Shown here: positions 8,679 to 55,042 of the stretch, in pieces
How positions within the stretch are numbered: the first letter of the stretch is position 1
Layout of the letters: every line of letters begins with the position of its first letter
The notes under the pieces: model-generated
Told to the model about the DNA's origin: nothing
What the model saw: only the letters and a program-made list of their open reading frames with translations
The model's database searches: none
Origin: Desulfonatronum lacustre DSM 10312
Lineage (GTDB): Bacteria > Desulfobacterota > Desulfovibrionia > Desulfovibrionales > Desulfonatronaceae
Assembly (NCBI RefSeq): GCF_000519265.1
Contig: NZ_KI912608.1
Location: 3,339,421 to 3,403,420, forward strand
Length of the DNA stretch: 64,000 bases
Reading direction: 5' to 3'
Made by a program: the position numbers and the translations under genes

Positions 8679-8729
8679 ACTGTGACGCGCTTGTCGTGTT
8701 CACCAGGAAGGATAGGCAAGGAGATGGAA

Positions 8730-10082
8730 ATGTTGCAAAAATCCTCCGACGACCGTGAGCAGCTCTTGCGATATGCCCAGGATCTGGCCGTAATCGTCAG
8801 ACGGGAGAAGGAAAAGAACGCGGCGTTGCTGAAGATTGTTGGTGATCTGGAGGAAGCCAGGCAAAAACTGCTTCTGGAAATCGAACAGCGCACGGCCTTG
8901 CAGCGAGAGTTGGAGCAGGCCAAGGAGGCGGCAGAAGAGGCCAGTCAGTTCAAGACGGACTTTATGAACAACATGAGCCATGAGCTGCGCACACCTTTGA
9001 ACGGGATCATGGGCATGTGCTCGCTTCTGGAAATGACCTCGTTGGACGCTGAACAGCGCGATTTTCTGGCCTTGCTGAAAAAGTCGGCCCGGCGACAGCT
9101 CCGGCTGGTGGACGCTCTGCTCAACGTCGATCTCCTTAACAGCGACGCCCTACAACTTGAGCTGGAAGAGTTCGACCTGGCCCAGGCCGTCAGGACGACG
9201 CTGGCTCCCTTGCGGGACATTGCCGATTCCAAGGGCTTGAACTTCAAAATAGACCTGGACAAGGCCCTTCCGAAAATCGTGAGTCAGGACAGGACCTATC
9301 TGATGCAGGCCGTGTTCAATCTGGTGGACAACGCGGTCAAGTTCACGGCCCAAGGCGAAATCCGCGTGGCTGTAGAGGTTGAAAGTCGTTCCAATGGCCA
9401 CTGCTTGATACGGTTCACGGTGCGGGATACGGGGATCGGGATATCTGAAGCGTCCGTAGGTAAAATATTTCGAAGTTTCGTCCAAGCGGAGCGCTCCTAT
9501 ACGAGATCCTTTGAAGGGGCCGGACTGGGCCTGTCCATTGCTCGGAAAATTTTGGAGAAAATGGGCTCGGAAATCCAGGTCGATTCCGAGCCCGGACGGG
9601 GAAGCACCTTCTCTTTCTCCCTGAACGTTCCGCTTGGAAAGGCGGACCGAAGTGATCGCCCCCCATGTGACGCCCAACTCCTCCCGTCTCTGCGTATCCT
9701 CGTGGTTGAGGACGAAGCCGTGAACCGATTCCTGGCCTCCCACTTTTTGACCAATAAAGGACATGCGGTCACCCAGGCGATCAATGGCCGGGAAGCTGTA
9801 ACCTTCTGCCAGGAGCAGGGCTTCGACCTGATCCTGATGGACATCTCCATGCCGGTCATGGACGGGCTGCAAGCCACCCAGGCCATCCGCGAATCCCGTG
9901 ACTTCATGGTCCGTCCGGACATTCCGATCATCGCCCTGACCGGGCATGTCTTGCCCGGGGATCGCGAACGCTTCCTGGCCTCGGGCATGGACGGTTACCT
10001 GGGAAAGCCCATCGACGTGCCGCTCCTGTTTGAGGAAATCAATGCCGTGATGCGCAAATGCTTTTCCATGGCGCGAGCTTGA
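8730..10082 (+). CDS. Soluble hybrid histidine kinase (HisKA-HATPase-REC)
   Basis: A 450-residue protein: N-terminal tag RYAQDLAVIVRREK (residues 14-27), coiled coil to about 75, HisKA with MNNMSHELRTPLNG, HATPase_c (LVDNAVKFT, RDTGIGI, GAGLGLSIARK) and a C-terminal receiver (VVEDEAVNR, LILMDISMPVMDG, LTGH). There is no sensor domain or membrane helix, so it probably acts as an intermediate kinase docked to another protein. Start: ATG 8730, with AAGGAG six bases upstream; GTG 8682 and ATG 8724 are poorly spaced. It lies 51 bp after the NIT kinase. The receiver may pass phosphate to the Hpt protein at 13322. Confidence 0.9.
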   Translation: MLQKSSDDREQLLRYAQDLAVIVRREKEKNAALLKIVGDLEEARQKLLLEIEQRTALQRELEQAKEAAEEASQFKTDFMNNMSHELRTPLNGIMGMCSLLEMTSLDAEQRDFLALLKKSARRQLRLVDALLNVDLLNSDALQLELEEFDLAQAVRTTLAPLRDIADSKGLNFKIDLDKALPKIVSQDRTYLMQAVFNLVDNAVKFTAQGEIRVAVEVESRSNGHCLIRFTVRDTGIGISEASVGKIFRSFVQAERSYTRSFEGAGLGLSIARKILEKMGSEIQVDSEPGRGSTFSFSLNVPLGKADRSDRPPCDAQLLPSLRILVVEDEAVNRFLASHFLTNKGHAVTQAINGREAVTFCQEQGFDLILMDISMPVMDGLQATQAIRESRDFMVRPDIPIIALTGHVLPGDRERFLASGMDGYLGKPIDVPLLFEEINAVMRKCFSMARA

Positions 10083-10317: not shown

Positions 10318-10683
10318 ATGAAAAAAATCCTCATCGTGGACGACCAGCCCGAGGTCCGTCGACTCGTGGACGTCACCTTGCGGTTTGACGAATACCAGAT
10401 TTTGCAAGCCGCAAATGGCGAAGCGGGCGTGGCCATGGCCCAGGAACACAAGCCGAATTTGATCATCATGGACGTGATGATGCCCGGCGAAATCGATGGA
10501 CTGGAAGCTACCCGCCGGATCAAGACCAATCCGAAAACAAGTGGGTGCACCGTGATAATGCTCACGGCCAAGGGACAACAGGCGGACCAAGATGCCGGAC
10601 GTAAGGCCGGGGCGGACGACTACTTCATCAAGCCATTCAGTCCGTTGGACTTGATCCGCAAGGTGGAGGACGCCTTGTCATGA
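10318..10683 (+). CDS. Single-domain CheY-like response regulator
   Basis: A 121-residue stand-alone receiver with all key residues: acidic pair in LIVDDQ, phospho-acceptor Asp 52 in IIMDVMMPG, Thr in MLTAKG and Lys in YFIKPFSP. No output domain is present. GGAG lies upstream of the ATG. Its stop overlaps the start of the HD-GYP gene (ATGA, 10680-10683), so the two are translationally coupled. As the only free receiver in the block, it is a candidate phosphate sink or target of the NIT, hybrid or CheA-like kinases, and may control the HD-GYP protein directly. Confidence 0.92.
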   Translation: MKKILIVDDQPEVRRLVDVTLRFDEYQILQAANGEAGVAMAQEHKPNLIIMDVMMPGEIDGLEATRRIKTNPKTSGCTVIMLTAKGQQADQDAGRKAGADDYFIKPFSPLDLIRKVEDALS

Positions 10684-11543
10684 GAACGTTCGGGGTTGAG
10701 TGCGCTGATGGGCAACAGGGAGAATCCGTTGACTGCGCTGACCCGCAACTTTTCCGCTACGCCGAAGACCTAGCCCAAATGGCCCGGGTCGAGCGCTTCA
10801 CCACCGGTGAACTGCGGCTGGCCATGGACCAACTGGCCACCTACGCCCAGGAGCTGAACGTCACGGTGCGTGAACTGAAGGATTCCAAGCGCGAACTGGA
10901 GGAATCCTATCTGGAGACCATGCACATGCTGGCCACGGCCGCGGAGTTCAAGGACGAGAACACCGGGAACCACATTTTGCGAATCGGCCGATACAGCGCT
11001 TTTCTGGCCGATAAATACGGGCTGAGCGACCATGACACGCACATTCTGCTCAACGCCGCACCCATGCATGACGTGGGCAAAATCGGCATCCCGGACCAGA
11101 TACTGAACAAACCGGCCCGACTGACCGCGGAAGAGTTCGCCGTGATCACGACCCATACCCGGATCGGGGCGCGCATCCTGGGCGGCTCCAAGGCCAGGAT
11201 TCTTCAGGAAGCCTCGACCATCGCCCTGCGGCATCATGAAAATTGGGACGGCAGCGGATACCCCGACGGACTGCAAGGCGAGGCCATTCCCTTATCCGGG
11301 CGGATCGTCAAGCTGGTGGACGTGTTCGACGCCCTGACCACGGACCGTCCATATAAGAACGCCTATCCGGTGGACGCAGCCCTGGAGATCATCCGCAAGG
11401 GCACGGGCACGGAGTTCGACCCGTCCCTCGTGGAACTGTTCCTGGCCCATCTGCCGGACATCCTGGCCATCAAAACCGACATGCTCCGCGACGAGACGCA
11501 AACGGATCGGCCTTATGTACCGAGCCAGAGGGACGGAGGGTGA
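10680..11543 (+). CDS. HD-GYP domain phosphodiesterase (c-di-GMP candidate)
   Basis: A 287-residue protein. Residues 26-39 carry the tag RYAEDLAQMARVER, shared with the hybrid kinase and the phosphatase next door; a coiled coil follows (about 45-85). The HD-GYP domain then spans about 90-270, with HDVGKIGIPD, HH in LRHHENWDGSGYPDGL, and VFDALTTDRPYK. All the expected metal-binding and GYP residues are visible, so c-di-GMP hydrolysis is likely. It overlaps the CheY-like gene by ATGA, so together they act like a split receiver-HD-GYP regulator. It also meets the phosphatase gene downstream with almost no gap. Confidence 0.92.
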   Translation: MRTFGVECADGQQGESVDCADPQLFRYAEDLAQMARVERFTTGELRLAMDQLATYAQELNVTVRELKDSKRELEESYLETMHMLATAAEFKDENTGNHILRIGRYSAFLADKYGLSDHDTHILLNAAPMHDVGKIGIPDQILNKPARLTAEEFAVITTHTRIGARILGGSKARILQEASTIALRHHENWDGSGYPDGLQGEAIPLSGRIVKLVDVFDALTTDRPYKNAYPVDAALEIIRKGTGTEFDPSLVELFLAHLPDILAIKTDMLRDETQTDRPYVPSQRDGG

Positions 11544-11548
11544 CCAGA

Positions 11549-12448
11549 ATGGAGACATCATCCACCGCCCACCAGCAATCCATGAAATACGCCGAGGATA
11601 TCTCCCGGCTCTATCACCTGGAACGCCAACGGGCCGAGGATCTGCGTCTGGGCGCACTGATGCAGAAACGTTTCCTGACTCCCGTGGAACAGGTTCCCGG
11701 TTTTTTTGCCCCTACGGCCTACGAGGCCCTGGTCTACAATGCCGCGCCCATGTCGGTTTCCGGGGATTTTTTCTGCCTCAAGCCCATGGGCGGGCAGTTG
11801 CCGGAAGATGAGGGGCCTCGGACAGAGACTGAAGCTGCCACAGGGCTGAAATCCGAAGCGGACTTGGGACATAACTTCCGGCCAGCGGGTTTTTTGCTGG
11901 CCGACAGTTGCGGACACGGTCTTTCCGCCGCGCTCATTTCCATGCGCATTTCCAGCCTGGTCCAAACCTGCCCCGCGCCCCTGTCCGCGCCGGAAGAACT
12001 GATCCGGAGCATCGACCAGGATATCTGCGGCCTGATGCCCCCGGGTCGCTTCGTGGCCGCCAGCTACGCCATCCTGCACCCGGATCGCTGCCTGCTTTCC
12101 AATGCCGGATTGCCGTTCCCCATCCATGTTCAAAACGATCGTGTCGAGGAAATCGCCGTGTCCGGGCCACCCATGGGCATGGCCTGCGGAAATGTGTTTC
12201 GATCCGTGGAGCGGGAAATCCGGCCCGGCGACCTGCTGGTGATGTTCACGGACGGCCTGACCGAAGCCGGCAACGGGGAGGATGCCCCCTACGGCGTTGA
12301 CCGCCTGAAAATCTGCCTCGCCCAGCACGGACGACATCCCCTGCACGAACTCATGGCCGCCATCCTGACCGATCTGCGGGCCTATATCGGCAATCTGCCC
12401 CTGGACGACGACGTGACCGTGGCCCTCTTCCGGGCAAAAACAGATTAG
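11549..12448 (+). CDS. SpoIIE/RsbU-type PP2C serine phosphatase
   Basis: About 299 residues. The tag KYAEDISRLYHLER occupies residues 13-26, followed by a PPM-type phosphatase core with metal-binding motifs SVSGDF, LLADSCGHGLSAAL, VMFTDGLTEAG and DDDVTVALF. It is expected to dephosphorylate a phospho-Ser on a STAS-domain antagonist. Two such STAS-like domains are encoded in the next two genes. Start: ATG 11549 with GGAGG nine bases upstream; GTG 11540 overlaps the previous stop and is the alternative. No REC or PAS domain is present, so control presumably comes through the tag or partner binding. Confidence 0.88.
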   Translation: METSSTAHQQSMKYAEDISRLYHLERQRAEDLRLGALMQKRFLTPVEQVPGFFAPTAYEALVYNAAPMSVSGDFFCLKPMGGQLPEDEGPRTETEAATGLKSEADLGHNFRPAGFLLADSCGHGLSAALISMRISSLVQTCPAPLSAPEELIRSIDQDICGLMPPGRFVAASYAILHPDRCLLSNAGLPFPIHVQNDRVEEIAVSGPPMGMACGNVFRSVEREIRPGDLLVMFTDGLTEAGNGEDAPYGVDRLKICLAQHGRHPLHELMAAILTDLRAYIGNLPLDDDVTVALFRAKTD

Positions 12449-12477
12449 CCGAACCGGTGGACAACGATGGGGGATGC

Positions 12478-13269
12478 ATGACGATCATCTTTCGAGACAA
12501 ACGGATAACCGGGGGCGATGCGGAACGCGACGTGCTGTTTGAGGACTTTGCCCGGGACATGGAAACCGGCCAATACCGAAATGAATTCCAGGACCTGTTG
12601 CTTCTGGCGCTGGTGGAGGCCGTGAACAATGCCGTGGAGCACGGCAACGGCAATGACCCGCGCAAACAGGTCCATATCCGGTATCTGGTGCGACCGGAGT
12701 TGGTTTTGGCCTCGGTCGGGGACCAGGGGGCCGGCTTTGAGCCGCGTTTTCCTGATTTACGGCGTGTGACTGGAGCACGCGGCAGGGGACTGGGCCTGAT
12801 CAGGGCCAACGTTGATCACGTTTTTTTCAATCTTTCAGGAAATCACATCTTTTTTTGCAAGGGAGATCAATCAATGACCGAACACCTCGTTCAAGAGCAA
12901 TGGCGAATCAGCACCTACCCCAACGGAGTCGTCCTGGTCACGGACCTGGACTTCGGCCCGGCCAAACTCTCCATCGTCAAAGGCATCGCCGAAATCCTGG
13001 ACAAGGTCGGAGCTGTTCCGGACCGAACCGTCTTTCTGGATCTGAAAGGAGTCCGCATCCTGAGCAGCCTGACCTGGGGCAGCATCTTTGCCGAGGTCCA
13101 GAAGGACGCCGTTCGCCAAGTAATTCTGTTCAACGCCGGCGAGGCCATCCTCCAGACCGCGAACCAGATGGGGCTGACCACGCGCGAAGAAGAAACCTAT
13201 AAAAAGATCGTCCTGCTGCCGGATGCTTCCCAGGCCATGCACCTTTTGGCGGAAAAACTGACGGAATAG
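12478..13269 (+). CDS. RsbW-like anti-sigma kinase fused to a STAS-like domain
   Basis: Residues 1-125 form an intact GHKL serine kinase of the RsbW/SpoIIAB type: N-box LVEAVNNAVEHGNG, GDQGAGFE and GARGRGLGLIRAN. Residues about 133-263 form a STAS-like domain around FLDLKGVRILSSLTWGSIFAEV, with a candidate regulatory Ser in the SSLTWG turn. Fusing a partner-switch kinase and its usual antagonist in one chain is unusual. An internal in-frame ATG at 12874 preceded by AAGGGAG suggests the STAS part could also be made alone. Start: ATG 12478 after GGGGGATGC. No sigma-factor gene is nearby, so the final target is unknown. Confidence 0.8.
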   Translation: MTIIFRDKRITGGDAERDVLFEDFARDMETGQYRNEFQDLLLLALVEAVNNAVEHGNGNDPRKQVHIRYLVRPELVLASVGDQGAGFEPRFPDLRRVTGARGRGLGLIRANVDHVFFNLSGNHIFFCKGDQSMTEHLVQEQWRISTYPNGVVLVTDLDFGPAKLSIVKGIAEILDKVGAVPDRTVFLDLKGVRILSSLTWGSIFAEVQKDAVRQVILFNAGEAILQTANQMGLTTREEETYKKIVLLPDASQAMHLLAEKLTE

Positions 13270-13321
13270 TTTTCATCCGAAACGATCCGCGACATGAACC
13301 GAATCCACACAAGAGACGCAG

Positions 13322-14059
13322 ATGCACAACAATTTCGATGACGACGAGGAACTGTTTCAGGGGTTTTTCCTGGATGTGGAGGAGAGCTTTTCGCCCCAGG
13401 TGGCCGAGGCCTTGAGTCTGGTGCGCTCCGGTCAGGTTGAGGCGGGCATCGATATGATGTTCCGGCCGCTGCACACCATCAAAGGCACCTCGACCTTCAT
13501 CAATTTGAGCGACATCTCCACCTACACCCACAAGGTGGAAGACTACATGAAAGCCATCCAGTCCGGGCGTATCCCGCGTACAGACCAGGCGGTTGACTTG
13601 CTGATCCAGGCAGTGGACATGGTCTTTTCACTGTTGGACAAGGCCAAAGTCCGGGCGTCGTTGGACCAGGACGAAATCCGCCGCATGGAGGCCAGGCTGG
13701 CCGGAAACGCCTCATCTCCCGTAGAGTCAAGCGGGCCCGTCGGCTCCGAACACCTGATGGTCGAGCATGGGGAAGACAACGTTCTGATCCGGCTGCTTCT
13801 ACCCCGCATCCATCTTCCCGGACATTCCGAACCGCTTTTGGCCGCTCTTCGCCAGTTGCCCAAGGGCCAGCGGGTAGTCCTGGACCTGTCAAAGGTGCGC
13901 ACCATGAACTCCACCACCTGGGGCGCGATTTTCGCGGCCTCCCAGATCCTGGACATTTCGGTCACGGGCTTGACCGGGGCCTGCCGGACCACGTTCTACG
14001 CCTGGGGCTTTGAACAGCGAATCAGAGAAATTCCGCCATCCCCCCCAACCACCGGGTAA
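13322..14059 (+). CDS. Hpt domain protein with C-terminal STAS-like domain
   Basis: A 245-residue protein. The N-terminal Hpt domain (about 8-125) holds the phospho-acceptor motif LHTIKGTSTF with His 51. The C-terminal part (about 148-235) is STAS-like, with VVLDLSKVRTMNSTTWGAIFAA closely matching the STAS part of the preceding fusion protein. It thus links a His-Asp phosphorelay (Hpt) to a Ser/Thr partner switch (STAS). It sits 5 bp before a CheA-like gene whose own Hpt lacks the His, so it is a good candidate for the trans-acting P1 domain of that kinase. The ribosome site is weak. Confidence 0.82.
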   Translation: MHNNFDDDEELFQGFFLDVEESFSPQVAEALSLVRSGQVEAGIDMMFRPLHTIKGTSTFINLSDISTYTHKVEDYMKAIQSGRIPRTDQAVDLLIQAVDMVFSLLDKAKVRASLDQDEIRRMEARLAGNASSPVESSGPVGSEHLMVEHGEDNVLIRLLLPRIHLPGHSEPLLAALRQLPKGQRVVLDLSKVRTMNSTTWGAIFAASQILDISVTGLTGACRTTFYAWGFEQRIREIPPSPPTTG

Positions 14060-14064
14060 AGTGC

Positions 14065-15744
14065 ATGCCAGCCATTGATCCGTTCACGCAAATCAATCGA
14101 TGCATGGAAGAGGTCGAGGCCTCCATCCTCGAACTGGAAAAGTCCACGGGAAACAGCGCCCTGATCGAGCGCATCTGGAACGCCCTGGGCCTGAACGCGC
14201 TGCGGCTTTCCTCCCCCATGCCCGCTTCCCTGCTGGATCTGCTCAAGGACGGGGTCGTGCAGCCGGACCAGAAAACCGTGGATGTCCTTCTGGAACTCAG
14301 CGACGTGGTTCAGAGGCTGCTGCACCATGTAGCCGAGACCGTGCACGGCCCGCGTAGCCCCGAACCCTCGGCCTCCACTCGATCCGCCACGGAGGAACCG
14401 CTTGAGGAACGGTTTGAGAGTTCTCGGGAGGAAGAGGTATCCCCGGACATCCATCCAACACCGGATTCATCCCAGGCAGAAGCGACCGAAAACTCTATCG
14501 TCTCCGTCCCGGCCACGGCACCCGCCAGGCAGGAAACCGCGGTCCAGACCATGAAAGTCAGCACCGGCAAGCTGGACCGGGTAATGCAGCTCGTTTCGGA
14601 ACTGGCGGTCTCCCGCACCGTTTTGTCCCAGCACCCGCATATCCACTGCGCCGGAGGGAAGGACGTGGAAGTCGGCCTGTTGGAGATGGCCGGTTTTTTG
14701 GACAATCTGCTGGTGGAACTGACGGATATCCGCAGGGTCCCGCTGCACTCCACGTTCGTGCGCATGACGCGACTGGTCAGGGAGCTGGCCGGGCAGACCG
14801 GCAAGCAGGTTGAACTGACCTGCTTGGGCGGGGAGGTGGAACTGGATAAGACCATTGTGGACGAACTTAACGATCCTTTGCTCCACCTGCTTCGCAACGC
14901 CGTGGATCACGGCATTGACCCTCCGGAACAGCGTCGAGCCCTGAACAAGCCCGAACAGGGACGCATTGTGCTGCGAGCCACCTATCAGGACGACGCGGCG
15001 ATCATCGAGATCCAAGATGACGGCAAAGGCATTGATGCGGACAAGGTGCTCCAGAAAGCCAGGGAAAATGGGCTCATCGACGAGCGCAAAAACTACTCCT
15101 CCAGAGATATTTTTAGCCTGATCCTTCTGCCTGGCTTCTCCACCGCCGGCACGGTCAGCAACATCTCCGGCCGCGGCGTGGGCATGGACGTGGTGGCCCA
15201 GGGACTCAAGGCCATGGACGGGGAACTGGAAATTTCCAGCGAAAAGAACCAGGGAACCACCTTTAAAATCCGGATTCCCAAACGGCGCAACCTGACCGGC
15301 ATTTTCAAGGGCATGGAGGTCAAGGTCGGCGGACACCTTCTGCTCATCCCCTCCCAGGTGGTCTCCGAAATCCAACATATCGACGCTGGCAAGGTGTCGA
15401 CCATGGCCGGGGGGCGGGAAGTGGCTACGATCCGGGGCCATGTCTATTCCCTGGTGCGCCTGGATGTTGTCCTCGGCTGTGACGCAATATGCGGTGATGC
15501 TCAGGATGTGTACGTGGTTCTCGTGGAGGTCGGCGGGGAACGGGTAGCCTTCGTGGTGGACGAAGTCCTCGGCGAAGGCCAGGCCGTGGTCCGATCACTG
15601 GTCGGCTATCGGCGGATTTTCGACATTCCTTTGTTTTCCGGAGTGGCCCTGATGGGGGACAGAATGGGGCTGGTGCTGGACGTGGACCACTTGATGGCCG
15701 AGGCTTTCAAGAGACCTCCGGTGCGGTGCCGCATGACATGCTGA
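14065..15744 (+). CDS. CheA-like kinase with degenerate Hpt domain
   Basis: A 559-residue protein with CheA order: Hpt-like helices (1-95), acidic linker (95-155), dimerisation domain from MKVSTGKLDRVMQLVSEL, HATPase_c (LLHLLRNAVDHGID, QDDGKGID, GRGVGMDVV) and a C-terminal CheW-like domain (GIFKGMEVKVGGHLLLIP onward). In the first helical bundle the usual HxxKG acceptor is replaced by WNALGLNAL, and no His occurs there, so self-phosphorylation at P1 should fail. The Hpt protein encoded 5 bp upstream could supply it in trans. No chemoreceptor, CheB or CheR gene is nearby, which points to a role other than standard chemotaxis. Confidence 0.88.
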   Translation: MPAIDPFTQINRCMEEVEASILELEKSTGNSALIERIWNALGLNALRLSSPMPASLLDLLKDGVVQPDQKTVDVLLELSDVVQRLLHHVAETVHGPRSPEPSASTRSATEEPLEERFESSREEEVSPDIHPTPDSSQAEATENSIVSVPATAPARQETAVQTMKVSTGKLDRVMQLVSELAVSRTVLSQHPHIHCAGGKDVEVGLLEMAGFLDNLLVELTDIRRVPLHSTFVRMTRLVRELAGQTGKQVELTCLGGEVELDKTIVDELNDPLLHLLRNAVDHGIDPPEQRRALNKPEQGRIVLRATYQDDAAIIEIQDDGKGIDADKVLQKARENGLIDERKNYSSRDIFSLILLPGFSTAGTVSNISGRGVGMDVVAQGLKAMDGELEISSEKNQGTTFKIRIPKRRNLTGIFKGMEVKVGGHLLLIPSQVVSEIQHIDAGKVSTMAGGREVATIRGHVYSLVRLDVVLGCDAICGDAQDVYVVLVEVGGERVAFVVDEVLGEGQAVVRSLVGYRRIFDIPLFSGVALMGDRMGLVLDVDHLMAEAFKRPPVRCRMTC

Positions 15745-16125
15745 TGAGCCTGGTCCGTGTCGGATCGGCGTTCTCTTGGTGAATCCGCTAACCCTGGAGG
15801 GACATTTCGACGGTCCCATCAAGGCGAGCTGAGTGAAAAGATCGGGTCGTTGGCCTGCCTGCGGTTACGGGATATTCCTGGCTGGCGTGTTGTTGTTGGT
15901 GATGGAGGCCAAGGGCGTAGAAGGTCAGATGTAGCTTCGCAAGAAGATCGGGCCAAACAAGCGCCATTGTGCTTTGAATGCCGATATTGCCGCTGGATGT
16001 GCTTCGCTTGTTCAGCCTACATCAAATGTGTGGCCAGTAATCGCTATGTAGGCCGGATAAGGCGACAGTCTCATCCGGCACTGTGAATCGACATAGTGAA
16101 TCGGCACGTCAACTCAGTTTTTTTG
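15745..16125. other. Intergenic region after the signalling block
   Basis: About 380 bp between two convergently transcribed genes. No frame here shows recognisable protein similarity, and no U-tailed terminator is evident. Its right half holds a REP-like palindromic element (16015-16080), annotated separately. The remainder shows nothing I can identify. Confidence 0.5.
16015..16080. repeat. REP/BIME-like palindromic element
   Basis: GTAGGCCGGATAAGGCG at 16048-16064 followed by CATCCGGCA at 16072-16080 forms an imperfect hairpin that closely resembles enterobacterial REP units. An inverted outer pair, GCCTACAT at 16015-16022 and ATGTAGGC at 16046-16053, resembles the paired layout of BIMEs. 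It lies between convergent genes, a common REP location. Function could be transcript end stabilisation. Finding this sequence type in a sulfate reducer is unexpected. Confidence 0.55.
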
Positions 16126-16854
16126 TCACCGGCTATGATCCCGAAACCACTGTTCCAGTGTGGTGCAGTGGCGGCAAACGCCGCGTTTTTGGAAAACCCG
16201 GACCAAGGCCATGCCCATGATGAACCCCCCGATGTGCGCCCACCAGGCGATGCCGCCGCCGATGCCTTGGAATACCAGGGAGAAGAGGCCGGAGACGATC
16301 TGGATCAGGAACCAGATGCCCAGGAAGATCACCGCCGGGATTTCGAAAAAGAAGGGCAGAAAGAAGATGGGGACGAAGGCCACCACCCGGGCGTGGGGGT
16401 AGAGCAGGAGGTACGCGCCCATGACCCCGGCGATGGCCCCGGATGCGCCGACAACGGGAACCGTGGAGTCCAGGTTGAAGAGTAAATGGGCCAGGATCGC
16501 CCCCAGTCCGCAGAGCAGGTAGAACAGGATGAACCGGACCGTGCCCATCACGTCTTCCACGTTGTCCCCGAAAATCCAGAGCATCCACATGTTCAGCAGA
16601 TAGTGCAGCCATCCGCCGTGCAGGAACATGTGCGTGACCAGGGTCATGGTCCAGTCCGGAGAATAGCCGACCCACTGGGCCCAGGCCGGGTCCGTGGCCC
16701 GTGCCGGGACCATGCCGAAGATGTGGGTGAAGCGGAGCAGCTCCCGGTCGGTCATGGTCAACTGGAGGATGAAGACCAGAGTGTTGGCGATGATGATCAG
16801 CCACATGCCGTAGGATGGGCTTCGGCTGGGGATGTTGTCGCGAAGTGGGAACAT
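16126..16854 (-). CDS. Rhomboid-family intramembrane serine protease
   Basis: A 242-residue polytopic membrane protein with six or seven hydrophobic segments. The catalytic Ser lies in VVGASGAIAGVMGAY, the catalytic His in WWAHIGGFIMGM, and the conserved HMFLHGGWLHYLLNMWMLWIFG loop in the second helix region is intact. Rhomboids cleave within or near transmembrane segments of client proteins in the inner membrane; the client is unknown. Start: ATG 16854 with GAGGAG upstream. It stands alone, between two repeat-containing intergenic regions. Confidence 0.92.
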   Translation of the reverse strand: MFPLRDNIPSRSPSYGMWLIIIANTLVFILQLTMTDRELLRFTHIFGMVPARATDPAWAQWVGYSPDWTMTLVTHMFLHGGWLHYLLNMWMLWIFGDNVEDVMGTVRFILFYLLCGLGAILAHLLFNLDSTVPVVGASGAIAGVMGAYLLLYPHARVVAFVPIFFLPFFFEIPAVIFLGIWFLIQIVSGLFSLVFQGIGGGIAWWAHIGGFIMGMALVRVFQKRGVCRHCTTLEQWFRDHSR

Positions 16855-52216: not shown

Positions 52217-52981
52217 TCAAATATCGGTTCGGGAGCCGGTCAACCCCGTCAGGGTCTGGAGCACTTCGACCATCAGGTGTTTGTCCCGGGGCAGGACCTT
52301 GTCGATGGCCACGTTTCGCGGGACGGTTTCCGGGTTGCTGGTCAGGAGGATGAAGGGGATTTTGGCGTTGCGGCCCTGGGAGGCGCGGATGGCCGCGACC
52401 ACGGCCACGCCGTTGAGCCGGACGAGTTCACGGGCCAGGACGGCGACCTGGAATTTGTGACGCATCAGCAGTTCGATGGCCGCGATTCCGTCGTCCACCA
52501 TGGTGATCTGGACGGGCTGGTCCGCCAGGGCCTTGCGCAGGACCTGCTGCATGATGTTCGAGGGTTCGGCCATCAGCACTTCAATACGCCGTTGTTTCTC
52601 CGGTTCCCGCAAGCGTTCCAACTCGGCTTCCAGGGACGCATAGTCCGGATCGTCCGCGCCGGCCACCTGTTGCACTTTGCGCAGCAGATCAATGTAGGCC
52701 AGGGACTTGGAAATGCAGTTGTCGCTGAAATCGCACGCCCCGGAGGCTTCGGTAAGAAGGTTTTCGAATTGGTGGCAAATAGCGGTGATGATGTGCAGGC
52801 CATGGGTTCCGCCAGAGCCTTTGAGGCTGTGCACGCCGCGATACAGTTCCTCGAAAACGTCGCGGTCGGCGGGGGTCCGTTCCAGTTGGATGATTTTTTG
52901 CTCCAGGCGATCGCAACGCTCTCCCATTTCGTTTAAAAATGCCCGCCGCATCTGCCGCAGCAGGGCTTCAATCTTGTCCAT
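52217..52981 (-). CDS. Hpt domain fused to a pseudoreceiver
   Basis: A 254-residue protein. The Hpt domain (about 5-115) has GVHSLKGSGGTHGL with the phospho-acceptor His near 51. The second domain (about 132-245) has a receiver fold (IEVLMAEPSNIMQQVL, FILLTSNPE) but the phospho-acceptor region reads VAVLARELVRLNG, without the Asp, and the N-terminal acidic pair is missing too, so it should not be phosphorylated. It lies two bases after the GGDEF gene with AAGGA as ribosome site. It may hold phosphate for, or scaffold, the neighbouring receiver proteins. Confidence 0.8.
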   Translation of the reverse strand: MDKIEALLRQMRRAFLNEMGERCDRLEQKIIQLERTPADRDVFEELYRGVHSLKGSGGTHGLHIITAICHQFENLLTEASGACDFSDNCISKSLAYIDLLRKVQQVAGADDPDYASLEAELERLREPEKQRRIEVLMAEPSNIMQQVLRKALADQPVQITMVDDGIAAIELLMRHKFQVAVLARELVRLNGVAVVAAIRASQGRNAKIPFILLTSNPETVPRNVAIDKVLPRDKHLMVEVLQTLTGLTGSRTDI

Positions 52982-52983
52982 GT

Positions 52984-54663
52984 TTATGCGTCCTTTTGCA
53001 TAGCGCCGCCGAGATGAATACGGTCCCGGCCGCTGCGTTTAGCGTCATACAAGGCCTCGTCCGCGGCCACGAGCATGGCTGAAGCGTCCGGATACTCCTC
53101 GGCCATGACCGCTCCAGCACTCAGGGTCACGGTAAAATCTTCGTTTTCGGCGGTAAACCGGATTTCCTTGAAGCGTTTACGAATGTCGTCCAGCAGCTCT
53201 CGAGCCGCTTCGGGTTCACACCGGGGCAGGACCACGGCAAATTCCTCCCCTCCGTACCGTCCGATGCCGTCGGTCTTGCGCAAGCGTTGTTTCAGGAGAT
53301 GGGCAAGGGCCTTGATCACTTGGTCGCCCACAACGTGTCCGTAGGTGTCGTTGACTTTTTTGAAGTGATCGATGTCCAACATGGCCACGCACAGGGACGT
53401 CCGTTCGCGCTTGGTTCGGGCAAATTCCAGGGCGATCTGTTCCTTGATGCGAGAGTGCTTGAGCAGGCCGGTCAGGCTGTCCTTGACCATCAGTTCCGTG
53501 AGCTGGCGCATTCGGGCGGCCCGGACCGAGATCGCTGCGGCTAGGTGGTGGTCGGAGATGGGTTTGGTCAGAAAGTCGTCCCCTCCGCTGCTCAAGGCCG
53601 AAAGTTGTCGGTCCTTGTCCGTCTCCGCGGAGAGGTAGATGATGGGCATGCTCACCCATTCTTCATGCATCCGGATCACTCGGGCCAGGTCCATCCCGGT
53701 ATAACCGGGCATGGCCACGTCCATGAGGATCAATTCCGGCTGGAATTCCCGCAAAACGTGCAGAATGCCCTGGGGTTCGCTCAGGGTCTTGGCTTCCATT
53801 CCGTCCGCTTTCAGCACCAGTGCGTAGTGCTTTGCCAACTCCTCGTCGTCGTCCACGATCAGCAGGCGATAGGGAATGTCTTGCTTGCGACGAATGGACT
53901 GCTCGACTCGGTCGATGAGTTTGGGGACATCCACCGGCTTGGGAAAGAACCCTTCAGCCCCGATGCGGGCGGCTTGGACCCGGATATCAAAGGTGTCCCG
54001 GTCGGAGAGAAAAATGATCGGCCGCCCCAGGTCCGTGAATTCCGGGGAAAGGACTACCTGTTCGATGGTGTTCAGGCCGTTTGATTCAAAGGCCACGTCC
54101 AGGATTATAACATCCGGCTTCCGGTGGTGGAGGGATTGGGCCGCCTCAGCCAGCAAGGTATAGCGATGAATCACGTAACCGAAGTGCCCGAAGATTCGCT
54201 TCAATTCCTGGGCCAACGGTTCTTCGTCCTCCACCAAGCATACCACGACTTCGCCGTTTATTTTCGAAGGACGGTCCGTCGTTTGCGCGGCGTCGTCGGA
54301 AGGTTCATCAACGGGCTGATGTTCCGTCAGGTATCCGCGCAGAGCATGCACGTCGCGACGGAGATCATGTAGGTCTTGCGCCGGGGGCATTGTCGGCCGG
54401 GAATTTTGCACCCAACCTTGAAGACGGACTTCAAGGCTTCTGGCTGCCGAGCCCAATTCCGGGAAGCCAAAGGTACCGGCGGAACCGGCCATTTTGTGCA
54501 GGGCGCGTAGCATTTCCTCCAGGCGAGGAGCCGTGTCGGAATCCGAGGCCAGAGCGTCGGCCAGTCGCTCTAGTTGTGGAATCTCGCTGTCCAGGCGCTG
54601 GCGGAACATGTCTCGCAAGGCTTGCAACTGGTCTGCTATGGCCGACGATTTATCCTCACTCAT
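52984..54663 (-). CDS. Hpt-REC-REC-GGDEF diguanylate cyclase
   Basis: A 559-residue protein. Hpt domain with LHKMAGSAGTFGFPEL (His near 60); first receiver (VCLVEDEEPLAQEL, VIILDVAFESNG); second receiver (LLIVDDDEELAKHY, LILMDVAMPGYTG, YLSAET, LTKPIS); and a C-terminal GGDEF domain (DSLTGLLKHSRI, LDIDHFKKVNDTYGH, RYGGEEFAVVLPR) with an intact active site, so it should make c-di-GMP. No clear RxxD inhibitory site is visible. Start: ATG 54663, overlapping the CheY-like gene by eight bases. It is the probable output of this signalling run. Confidence 0.9.
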   Translation of the reverse strand: MSEDKSSAIADQLQALRDMFRQRLDSEIPQLERLADALASDSDTAPRLEEMLRALHKMAGSAGTFGFPELGSAARSLEVRLQGWVQNSRPTMPPAQDLHDLRRDVHALRGYLTEHQPVDEPSDDAAQTTDRPSKINGEVVVCLVEDEEPLAQELKRIFGHFGYVIHRYTLLAEAAQSLHHRKPDVIILDVAFESNGLNTIEQVVLSPEFTDLGRPIIFLSDRDTFDIRVQAARIGAEGFFPKPVDVPKLIDRVEQSIRRKQDIPYRLLIVDDDEELAKHYALVLKADGMEAKTLSEPQGILHVLREFQPELILMDVAMPGYTGMDLARVIRMHEEWVSMPIIYLSAETDKDRQLSALSSGGDDFLTKPISDHHLAAAISVRAARMRQLTELMVKDSLTGLLKHSRIKEQIALEFARTKRERTSLCVAMLDIDHFKKVNDTYGHVVGDQVIKALAHLLKQRLRKTDGIGRYGGEEFAVVLPRCEPEAARELLDDIRKRFKEIRFTAENEDFTVTLSAGAVMAEEYPDASAMLVAADEALYDAKRSGRDRIHLGGAMQKDA

Positions 54664-55042
54664 TTTTCCGTTCCCAGATCGCACGCACCTCGTCGGCCAG
54701 TTTCATGGGGTCAAAGGGCTTGGCGATTACTCCCCGAGCCCCGAGGGCCAAGTACTCGGAAACTTCTCCCGGCTGGACCTTAGCGGTCATGAAGACCACG
54801 GGAGTGTGCTCCAGGTCTGGCAGTTTTCTCAATTCACCCATGGTTGTCGGACCGTCCATGCCCGGCATCATCACGTCCAACAAGATCAGGTCCGGAACGA
54901 ACGTCCGCACGGTCTCCAGCGCATCCCGGCCGGAGGAACAAACCTTCAAGGTAAAGCCACCGACCATCTCCAGGGCGATCTGAGCCACGGCCTGGATGTC
55001 CGGTTCGTCTTCCACGTAGAGAATATTTTGGAGGGTGCTCAT
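54656..55042 (-). CDS. Single-domain response regulator (CheY-like)
   Basis: A 128-residue receiver with YVEDEPD, phospho-acceptor Asp 56 in LILLDVMMPGMDG, FMTAK and AKPFDP. There is no output domain. It lies 18 bases after the PAS kinase gene and overlaps the GGDEF gene. It probably takes phosphate from the kinase and relays it to the Hpt domains of the two next proteins. Confidence 0.92.
   Translation of the reverse strand: MSTLQNILYVEDEPDIQAVAQIALEMVGGFTLKVCSSGRDALETVRTFVPDLILLDVMMPGMDGPTTMGELRKLPDLEHTPVVFMTAKVQPGEVSEYLALGARGVIAKPFDPMKLADEVRAIWERKNE

Follow-up and report, generated by a model that had tools for sequence, protein, structure and literature searches.

How does a CheA-like kinase operate when it lacks the phospho-acceptor His in its own chain that is a hallmark of CheA? 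This question is raised by a pair of adjacent genes in the genome of Desulfonatronum lacustre DSM 10312, within the 64,000-nucleotide stretch of contig NZ_KI912608.1 (positions 3,339,421 to 3,403,420) that was analysed here and is referred to as the window; unless stated otherwise, coordinates are those of the window. A preliminary description of this DNA had suggested that the phosphotransfer (P1) domain of the kinase was split off into the neighbouring Hpt-STAS protein. Our analysis leads us to consider it likely that the pair is a bipartite CheA, in which the P4 domain of the 559-aa half phosphorylates His51 of the Hpt-STAS protein in trans.

A CheA-like kinase lacking the phospho-acceptor segment

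The two genes stand on the + strand in a row of signalling genes. The upstream part of this row comprises a hybrid kinase with a receiver (8682-10082) and a stand-alone CheY-like receiver (10318..10683; Pfam Response_reg), a possible phosphate acceptor, followed by an HD_5 (HD-GYP-type) domain protein (10680..11543; Pfam), a SpoIIE-type PP2C phosphatase (11540..12448; Pfam, 3e-37) and an RsbW-like HATPase_c_2 kinase with a C-terminal STAS-like region (12457..13269), where the Pfam match to STAS was weak. The Hpt-STAS gene (13322..14059) and the gene for the CheA-like kinase (14065..15744) come directly downstream, with 5 bases between their ORFs. Directly after the pair lies a gene on the - strand (16126-16854) which, judged by eye, encodes a rhomboid-like membrane protein.

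The CheA-like protein was analysed as an ORF of 559 aa by Pfam, phmmer and a family alignment. Pfam matched CheW, HATPase_c and part of H-kinase_dim, with no match to Hpt. The P3-P4-P5 core with its N, G1 and G2 boxes is present: P3 dimerisation helices (aa 161-222, 14545..14730) are indicated by the partial H-kinase_dim match and by model helices 167-188 and 199-223, the P4 ATP-binding kinase domain (aa 223-407, 14731..15285) carries the motifs LLHLLRNAVDHG, DDGKGID and SGRGVGMD, and the P5 CheW-like coupling domain (aa 412-546, 15298..15702) was recognised by Pfam CheW at 2e-17. Moreover, His274, Arg277, Asn278, Asp281 and His282 were invariant in the family alignment, as were the glycine boxes. 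The P4 of the kinase model superposed on T. maritima CheA P4 in VIA-align with a Z of 26.9 (1.3 A, 172 residues, 47% identity). This run used the whole kinase model, whose confidence was middling (pTM 0.44), and probed P4 and P5 but barely the N-terminal bundle; weighted in this way, it was therefore uninformative on the latter.

The N-terminal region (aa 1-95, 14065..14349) was modelled by AlphaFold2 as a short bundle of four helices (6-26, 31-41, 51-61 and 69-94), in which helix B has 11 residues (31-41) as against 21 (39-59) in Hpt-STAS. There is no His anywhere before residue 87, with His87, His88 and His94 coming at the end of the final helix. The likeness of this bundle to P1 emerged only from comparison with CheA P1s: direct profile comparison with the Hpt domain of the neighbour using hhalign gave no match (probability 1%), whereas the P1s of the genome's own CheAs were matched with a probability of 92%, the alignment leaving a gap of 10 columns at HxxKG. 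In the latter alignment LGLNALRL was paired with 'MFGFDDIAM', a P1 stretch downstream of HxxKG, and phmmer gave the same register against E. coli CheA (6s1k), aligning residues 41-88 of the query with 57-104 of the chain, 9 residues past His48. The gap and the register therefore indicate that the acceptor was deleted rather than substituted, and as judged from sequence about 10 residues including HxxKG have been cut out of helix B and not replaced. The preliminary description had placed WNALGLNAL at the HxxKG site; its conclusion that the bundle has no acceptor His is upheld, but its register needs correction, as WNALGLNAL corresponds to the stretch after the motif. The HxxKG turns are absent across the kinase family, which retains the kinase motifs, and HxxKG is kept in all five other CheAs of the genome. 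Because HxxKG has been deleted and Pfam detects no Hpt domain, we refer to the CheA-like protein as a kinase half and not as a complete CheA.

Two other readings of the bundle were considered and rejected. The relatives mostly carry a nearby His in the motif LGLSHxKL, at the column of Ala45 of the window's protein, which could be envisaged as a displaced acceptor. Of 57 distinct sequences, 39 have this His and the other 18 have N, C, K, R, S, Q or A instead, and the His is placed after the HxxKG site; being both variable and off the position of His48, it is therefore not the acceptor. A sequencing error or a wrongly assigned start that hides a P1 was likewise rejected, the deletion being identical in the other family loci that were read (the start of L063 excluded).

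A P1-type Hpt domain in the Hpt-STAS protein

The preliminary description had noted an intact Hpt domain (HTIKG, His51) encoded 5 bases upstream of the CheA-like gene, and this was confirmed by both ORFs and by a Pfam Hpt match over the cut-off; the Pfam matches to STAS were weak. In the AlphaFold2 model of this 245-aa protein (mean pLDDT 91, pTM 0.56), a bundle of four helices is accompanied by a fifth helix and by the STAS domain (aa about 142-230, 13745..14011). In a Foldseek search with the model, the P1 of R. sphaeroides CheA3 (3kyi) came first, followed by SpoIIAA (1tid), and CheA3 P1 was likewise the top match of phmmer, so that the nearest solved relative of this Hpt is the P1 of a split kinase. 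The STAS fold was matched to 1tid/1til with prob 1.00 and TMt 0.66-0.68, and no CheW domain was found by Pfam or Foldseek. The kinase bundle, aligned with CheA P1s by phmmer (against 6s1k) and hhalign, had no His at the P1 site.

His51 (codon 13472..13474), the predicted phospho-acceptor, was invariant in 19 aligned orthologues together with Lys54, His70 and Glu73. These residues reproduce the pattern of CheA P1, with equivalents of His48, Lys51, His67 and Glu70 at +0, +3, +19 and +22. In the CheAs of E. coli and T. maritima, the His/Lys/His/Glu set forms the active-site network of P1. A second His at +19 was found in 5/7 CheA-attached P1s as against 0/10 other Hpts of this genome, the latter belonging to GGDEF proteins or to large proteins of sensor-kinase size; all Hpts of this control had the Glu at +22. 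On account of the second His 19 residues past the acceptor, the Hpt domain of Hpt-STAS is classed by its sequence as of the CheA-P1 type. The +19 His also occurs in the Hpt-P2-STAS protein of the parallel operon described below and in a P1-type Hpt-REC protein of 254 aa encoded elsewhere in the window (52217-52981, - strand). The same strand encodes, at 52984-54684, a further Hpt protein, which has the Hpt motif HKMAG and regions resembling a receiver and GGDEF.

Co-occurrence and distribution of the pair

The distribution of both genes was analysed in a sample of about 295 genomes from the order, in which full-length Hpt-STAS matches stood clearly apart from plain Hpt matches; the kinase side was counted with a separate profile built only from the His-less bundle. 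The genomes with full-length Hpt-STAS and those with this bundle were the identical 77, and no genome had one without the other. In all 77 a separate gene for an acceptor Hpt accompanies a CheA without one, as expected of a bipartite CheA, with both genes on one contig and one strand, Hpt-STAS preceding the kinase, and the matched parts separated by 14-127 bases. Where loci were read over their full length, the Hpt protein had HTIKG and the kinase bundle did not. Given this strict co-occurrence, we are almost certainly dealing with one kinase split in two.

Nearly all of these genomes fall within one family, and those that are named are of the Desulfovibrionaceae type (for example Pseudodesulfovibrio, Humidesulfovibrio, Halodesulfovibrio and Desulfocurvus). 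Hpt-STAS proteins of the relatives are 28-41% identical to that of the window. Both genes are open in 76 of the 77 genomes; in G194 (L107, G194:C1 about 3254387-3255066), Hpt-STAS is broken by stops or a frameshift and the adjoining kinase gene is open. The pair was absent from all seven other members of the genus that were sampled. A tree of the kinase core, with small outgroup sampling, set 19 family members apart from seven canonical CheAs (100/99), and the window and G230 formed long branches. In a phylum-wide search with an Hpt-STAS profile, the matches listed below three known family members were for the most part limited to the Hpt portion and fell mostly in proteins with a length like that of CheA, and a scan of named genomes for Hpt-STAS returned Desulfovibrionales-type records and two weak Hpt matches.

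Neighbouring genes in relatives and a parallel operon

In most relatives, the gene directly upstream of Hpt-STAS encodes a CheY-like receiver of about 130 aa, and in two it encodes a large sensor kinase with receivers. Besides the window, G230 was the only one of the compared loci with an RsbW-like kinase in this position; most of the relatives compared showed no relative of RsbW-STAS beside the pair. The receiver at 10318-10683 shares only 25-30% identity with the receivers next to the pair in relatives and does not correspond to them. An orphan CheY encoded 66 kb away (G000:C1:3285849-3286238, - strand; L150) is 45-54% identical to them, and by this similarity is a candidate phosphate acceptor.

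The sister species G010 (L129, G010:C67) has kept the HD, PP2C and RsbW-STAS neighbours at 80-84% identity, but window positions 13270-16122, including the pair, are replaced there by about 785 bases with a histidine kinase fragment. The rhomboid-like gene forms the far edge of this differing segment. The pair behaves as a unit, and gain in the window and loss in G010 are indistinguishable. In G010, an ORF that by eye resembles an IS transposase also interrupts the PAS kinase upstream.

The same genome encodes a similar arrangement at 1438-1444 kb (L092:62-4370), where an RsbW-like-STAS protein, an Hpt-STAS protein of 371 aa and a CheA follow in the same order. In contrast to the pair, however, the P1 of this CheA is intact, and the Hpt protein has a long middle region, on our reading a P2-type domain. 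Family f5 shares with this genus the parallel operon of PP2C, RsbW-like, Hpt-P2-STAS and CheA genes. Other families of the order have this Hpt region fused into one protein as long as a CheA (about 1040-1100 aa), of which it makes up the N-terminus, and in two of the cases examined a separate small STAS-like protein is encoded upstream; such a fusion into one CheA is therefore evidence that Hpt proteins of this kind work with CheA. At the same time, an Hpt-STAS beside a CheA with an intact P1 means that an Hpt-STAS neighbour alone is no sign of P1 loss. The earlier suggestion that complementary loss and gain in neighbours imply a split P1 is thus weakened as a general argument. For the pair itself, a split P1 is well supported at the sequence level by the one-to-one adjacency in 77/77 genomes, the P1-type Hpt, its kinship with CheA3 P1 and the retained ATP-binding motifs.

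Proposed phosphotransfer and alternative explanations

In the proposed bipartite CheA, the kinase half, consisting of the vestigial P1-like bundle, P3, P4 and P5, would be incapable of self-phosphorylation, the HxxKG turns having been deleted from its P1. By analogy with the transfer from CheA4 to CheA3, its P4 would phosphorylate His51 of the 245-aa acceptor half in trans, and phospho-His51 would then donate its phosphate to a CheY-like receiver, the product of the next-door gene in most relatives; in this genome, the role may fall to the receiver at 10318-10683 or to the orphan CheY. The STAS domain would serve as a docking or output module of the acceptor half; the RsbW-like Ser kinase encoded next to it may also phosphorylate it in this genome and in G230. 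Since most relatives have a CheY-like neighbour and no RsbW-STAS beside the pair, the main output is no less likely to be transfer of the phosphate to a receiver than control of the STAS domain. Control of the STAS domain by phosphorylation of His51 is plausible in this genome, because the RsbW-like kinase and the PP2C adjoin, although most relatives are without that kinase. Counting against the bipartite reading are the absence of the relatives' pair-side receiver from the position next to the pair in the window, the hhalign match of bundle to P1, which reached 92% at most, the middling confidence of the kinase model, the other Hpt-STAS beside an intact-P1 CheA, and the possibility that the CheA-like kinase could use the P1s of other CheAs.

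Hpt-STAS could alternatively be mainly an output protein, in which the phosphate on His51 alters STAS binding so that the chemosensory kinase steers the upstream SpoIIE/RsbW-like partner switch. This fits the RsbW-like and PP2C genes directly upstream, the RsbW-like gene beside the pair in G230 and the parallel operon in this genus and family f5. Ser197 (codon 13910-13912) aligns with the phospho-Ser of SpoIIAA, and this position is Ser in 15 of 19 orthologues; it is variable, however, with Thr in two, Pro in one and Arg in one. Since, in addition, G010 retains HD, PP2C and RsbW-STAS in the absence of Hpt-STAS and the kinase, and most relatives have a CheY-like receiver and not an RsbW-STAS relative beside the pair, we regard this alternative as possible but doubtful. 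Slightly more tentative still is a split CheA whose phosphorylated P1 is itself the output: phospho-His51 would switch the STAS domain, and the chemosensory kinase would thereby be coupled to a partner switch of Ser kinase and PP2C, one protein being phosphorylatable twice, on His by the CheA half and on Ser by the RsbW-like kinase.

It is improbable that the CheA-like protein serves the P1s of other CheAs and that Hpt-STAS receives its phosphate from other kinases, for instance the hybrid kinases encoded in this row. The genome does offer such partners, with five other intact-P1 CheAs, many large Hpt-bearing proteins and the hybrid kinase with a receiver upstream, but the co-occurrence and adjacency of exactly this pair in 77/77 genomes, and the CheA-P1 type of its Hpt, argue against such an exchange. 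Finally, an inactive or decaying kinase, and a pair on its way out, would account for the lost His segment, the absence from seven other sampled genomes of the genus and the stops in Hpt-STAS of G194, but is very improbable with ATP-binding motifs invariant across the family and an open pair in 76/77 genomes despite an Hpt-STAS identity to that of the window of only 28-41%.

Comparison with known split kinases

The one worked-out split CheA that we found in the literature is that of Rhodobacter (Cereibacter) sphaeroides, with orthologues in Rhodobacteraceae (PMC10782961). CheA4, which is without P1, phosphorylates the P1 of CheA3 in trans at His51 (PMC2817712), and as in our pair a P1-less kinase half (P3-P4-P5) and a P1-type Hpt half are encoded in one operon (PMC2817712, PMC3591291). 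In contrast to Hpt-STAS, however, CheA3 continues into a 794-aa region with CheY-P phosphatase activity and then a P5, and has no STAS domain. Furthermore, CheA4 is described as P3, P4 and P5 only, whereas the kinase of the pair keeps a conserved vestigial P1-like bundle from which the His segment has been cut. Because it is without a CheW domain, Hpt-STAS is considered an analogue and not a member of the CheA3/CheA4 family.

Bipartite CheAs as such are known: the available parts of the survey by Berry, Andrianova and Zhulin (2023, PMC10782961) describe CheAs without Hpt and an Hpt encoded as a separate gene in the same operon, as in the pair. In contrast to the pair, STAS is not mentioned in its main text, and those parts report no comparable module spanning a whole lineage. 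The HptB-HsbR-HsbA system of P. aeruginosa likewise links an Hpt protein with a partner switch of the PP2C / RsbW-like / anti-anti-sigma kind (PMC6482189). There, however, the Hpt protein hands its phosphate to a REC-PP2C-kinase protein, the Hpt and the anti-anti-sigma factor are separate, and the kinases are hybrid kinases and not CheA. Our literature search, which mostly did not extend to subscription journals, found no paper naming the pair; on CheA in connection with STAS, PP2C and partner switching it yielded a single survey. We regard the pair as differing from the documented bipartite CheAs in three new respects: P1 is fused to STAS, a vestigial P1 is kept from which the His segment has been excised, and the arrangement is strictly conserved.

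Split kinases have been predicted to respond in a switch-like manner (PMC3591291). The pair offers a separate, compact and conserved instance of a split CheA in 77 genomes of sulfate reducers and their relatives, and with the acceptor placed on a STAS protein, a link between a chemosensory kinase and a partner switch is therefore directly testable.
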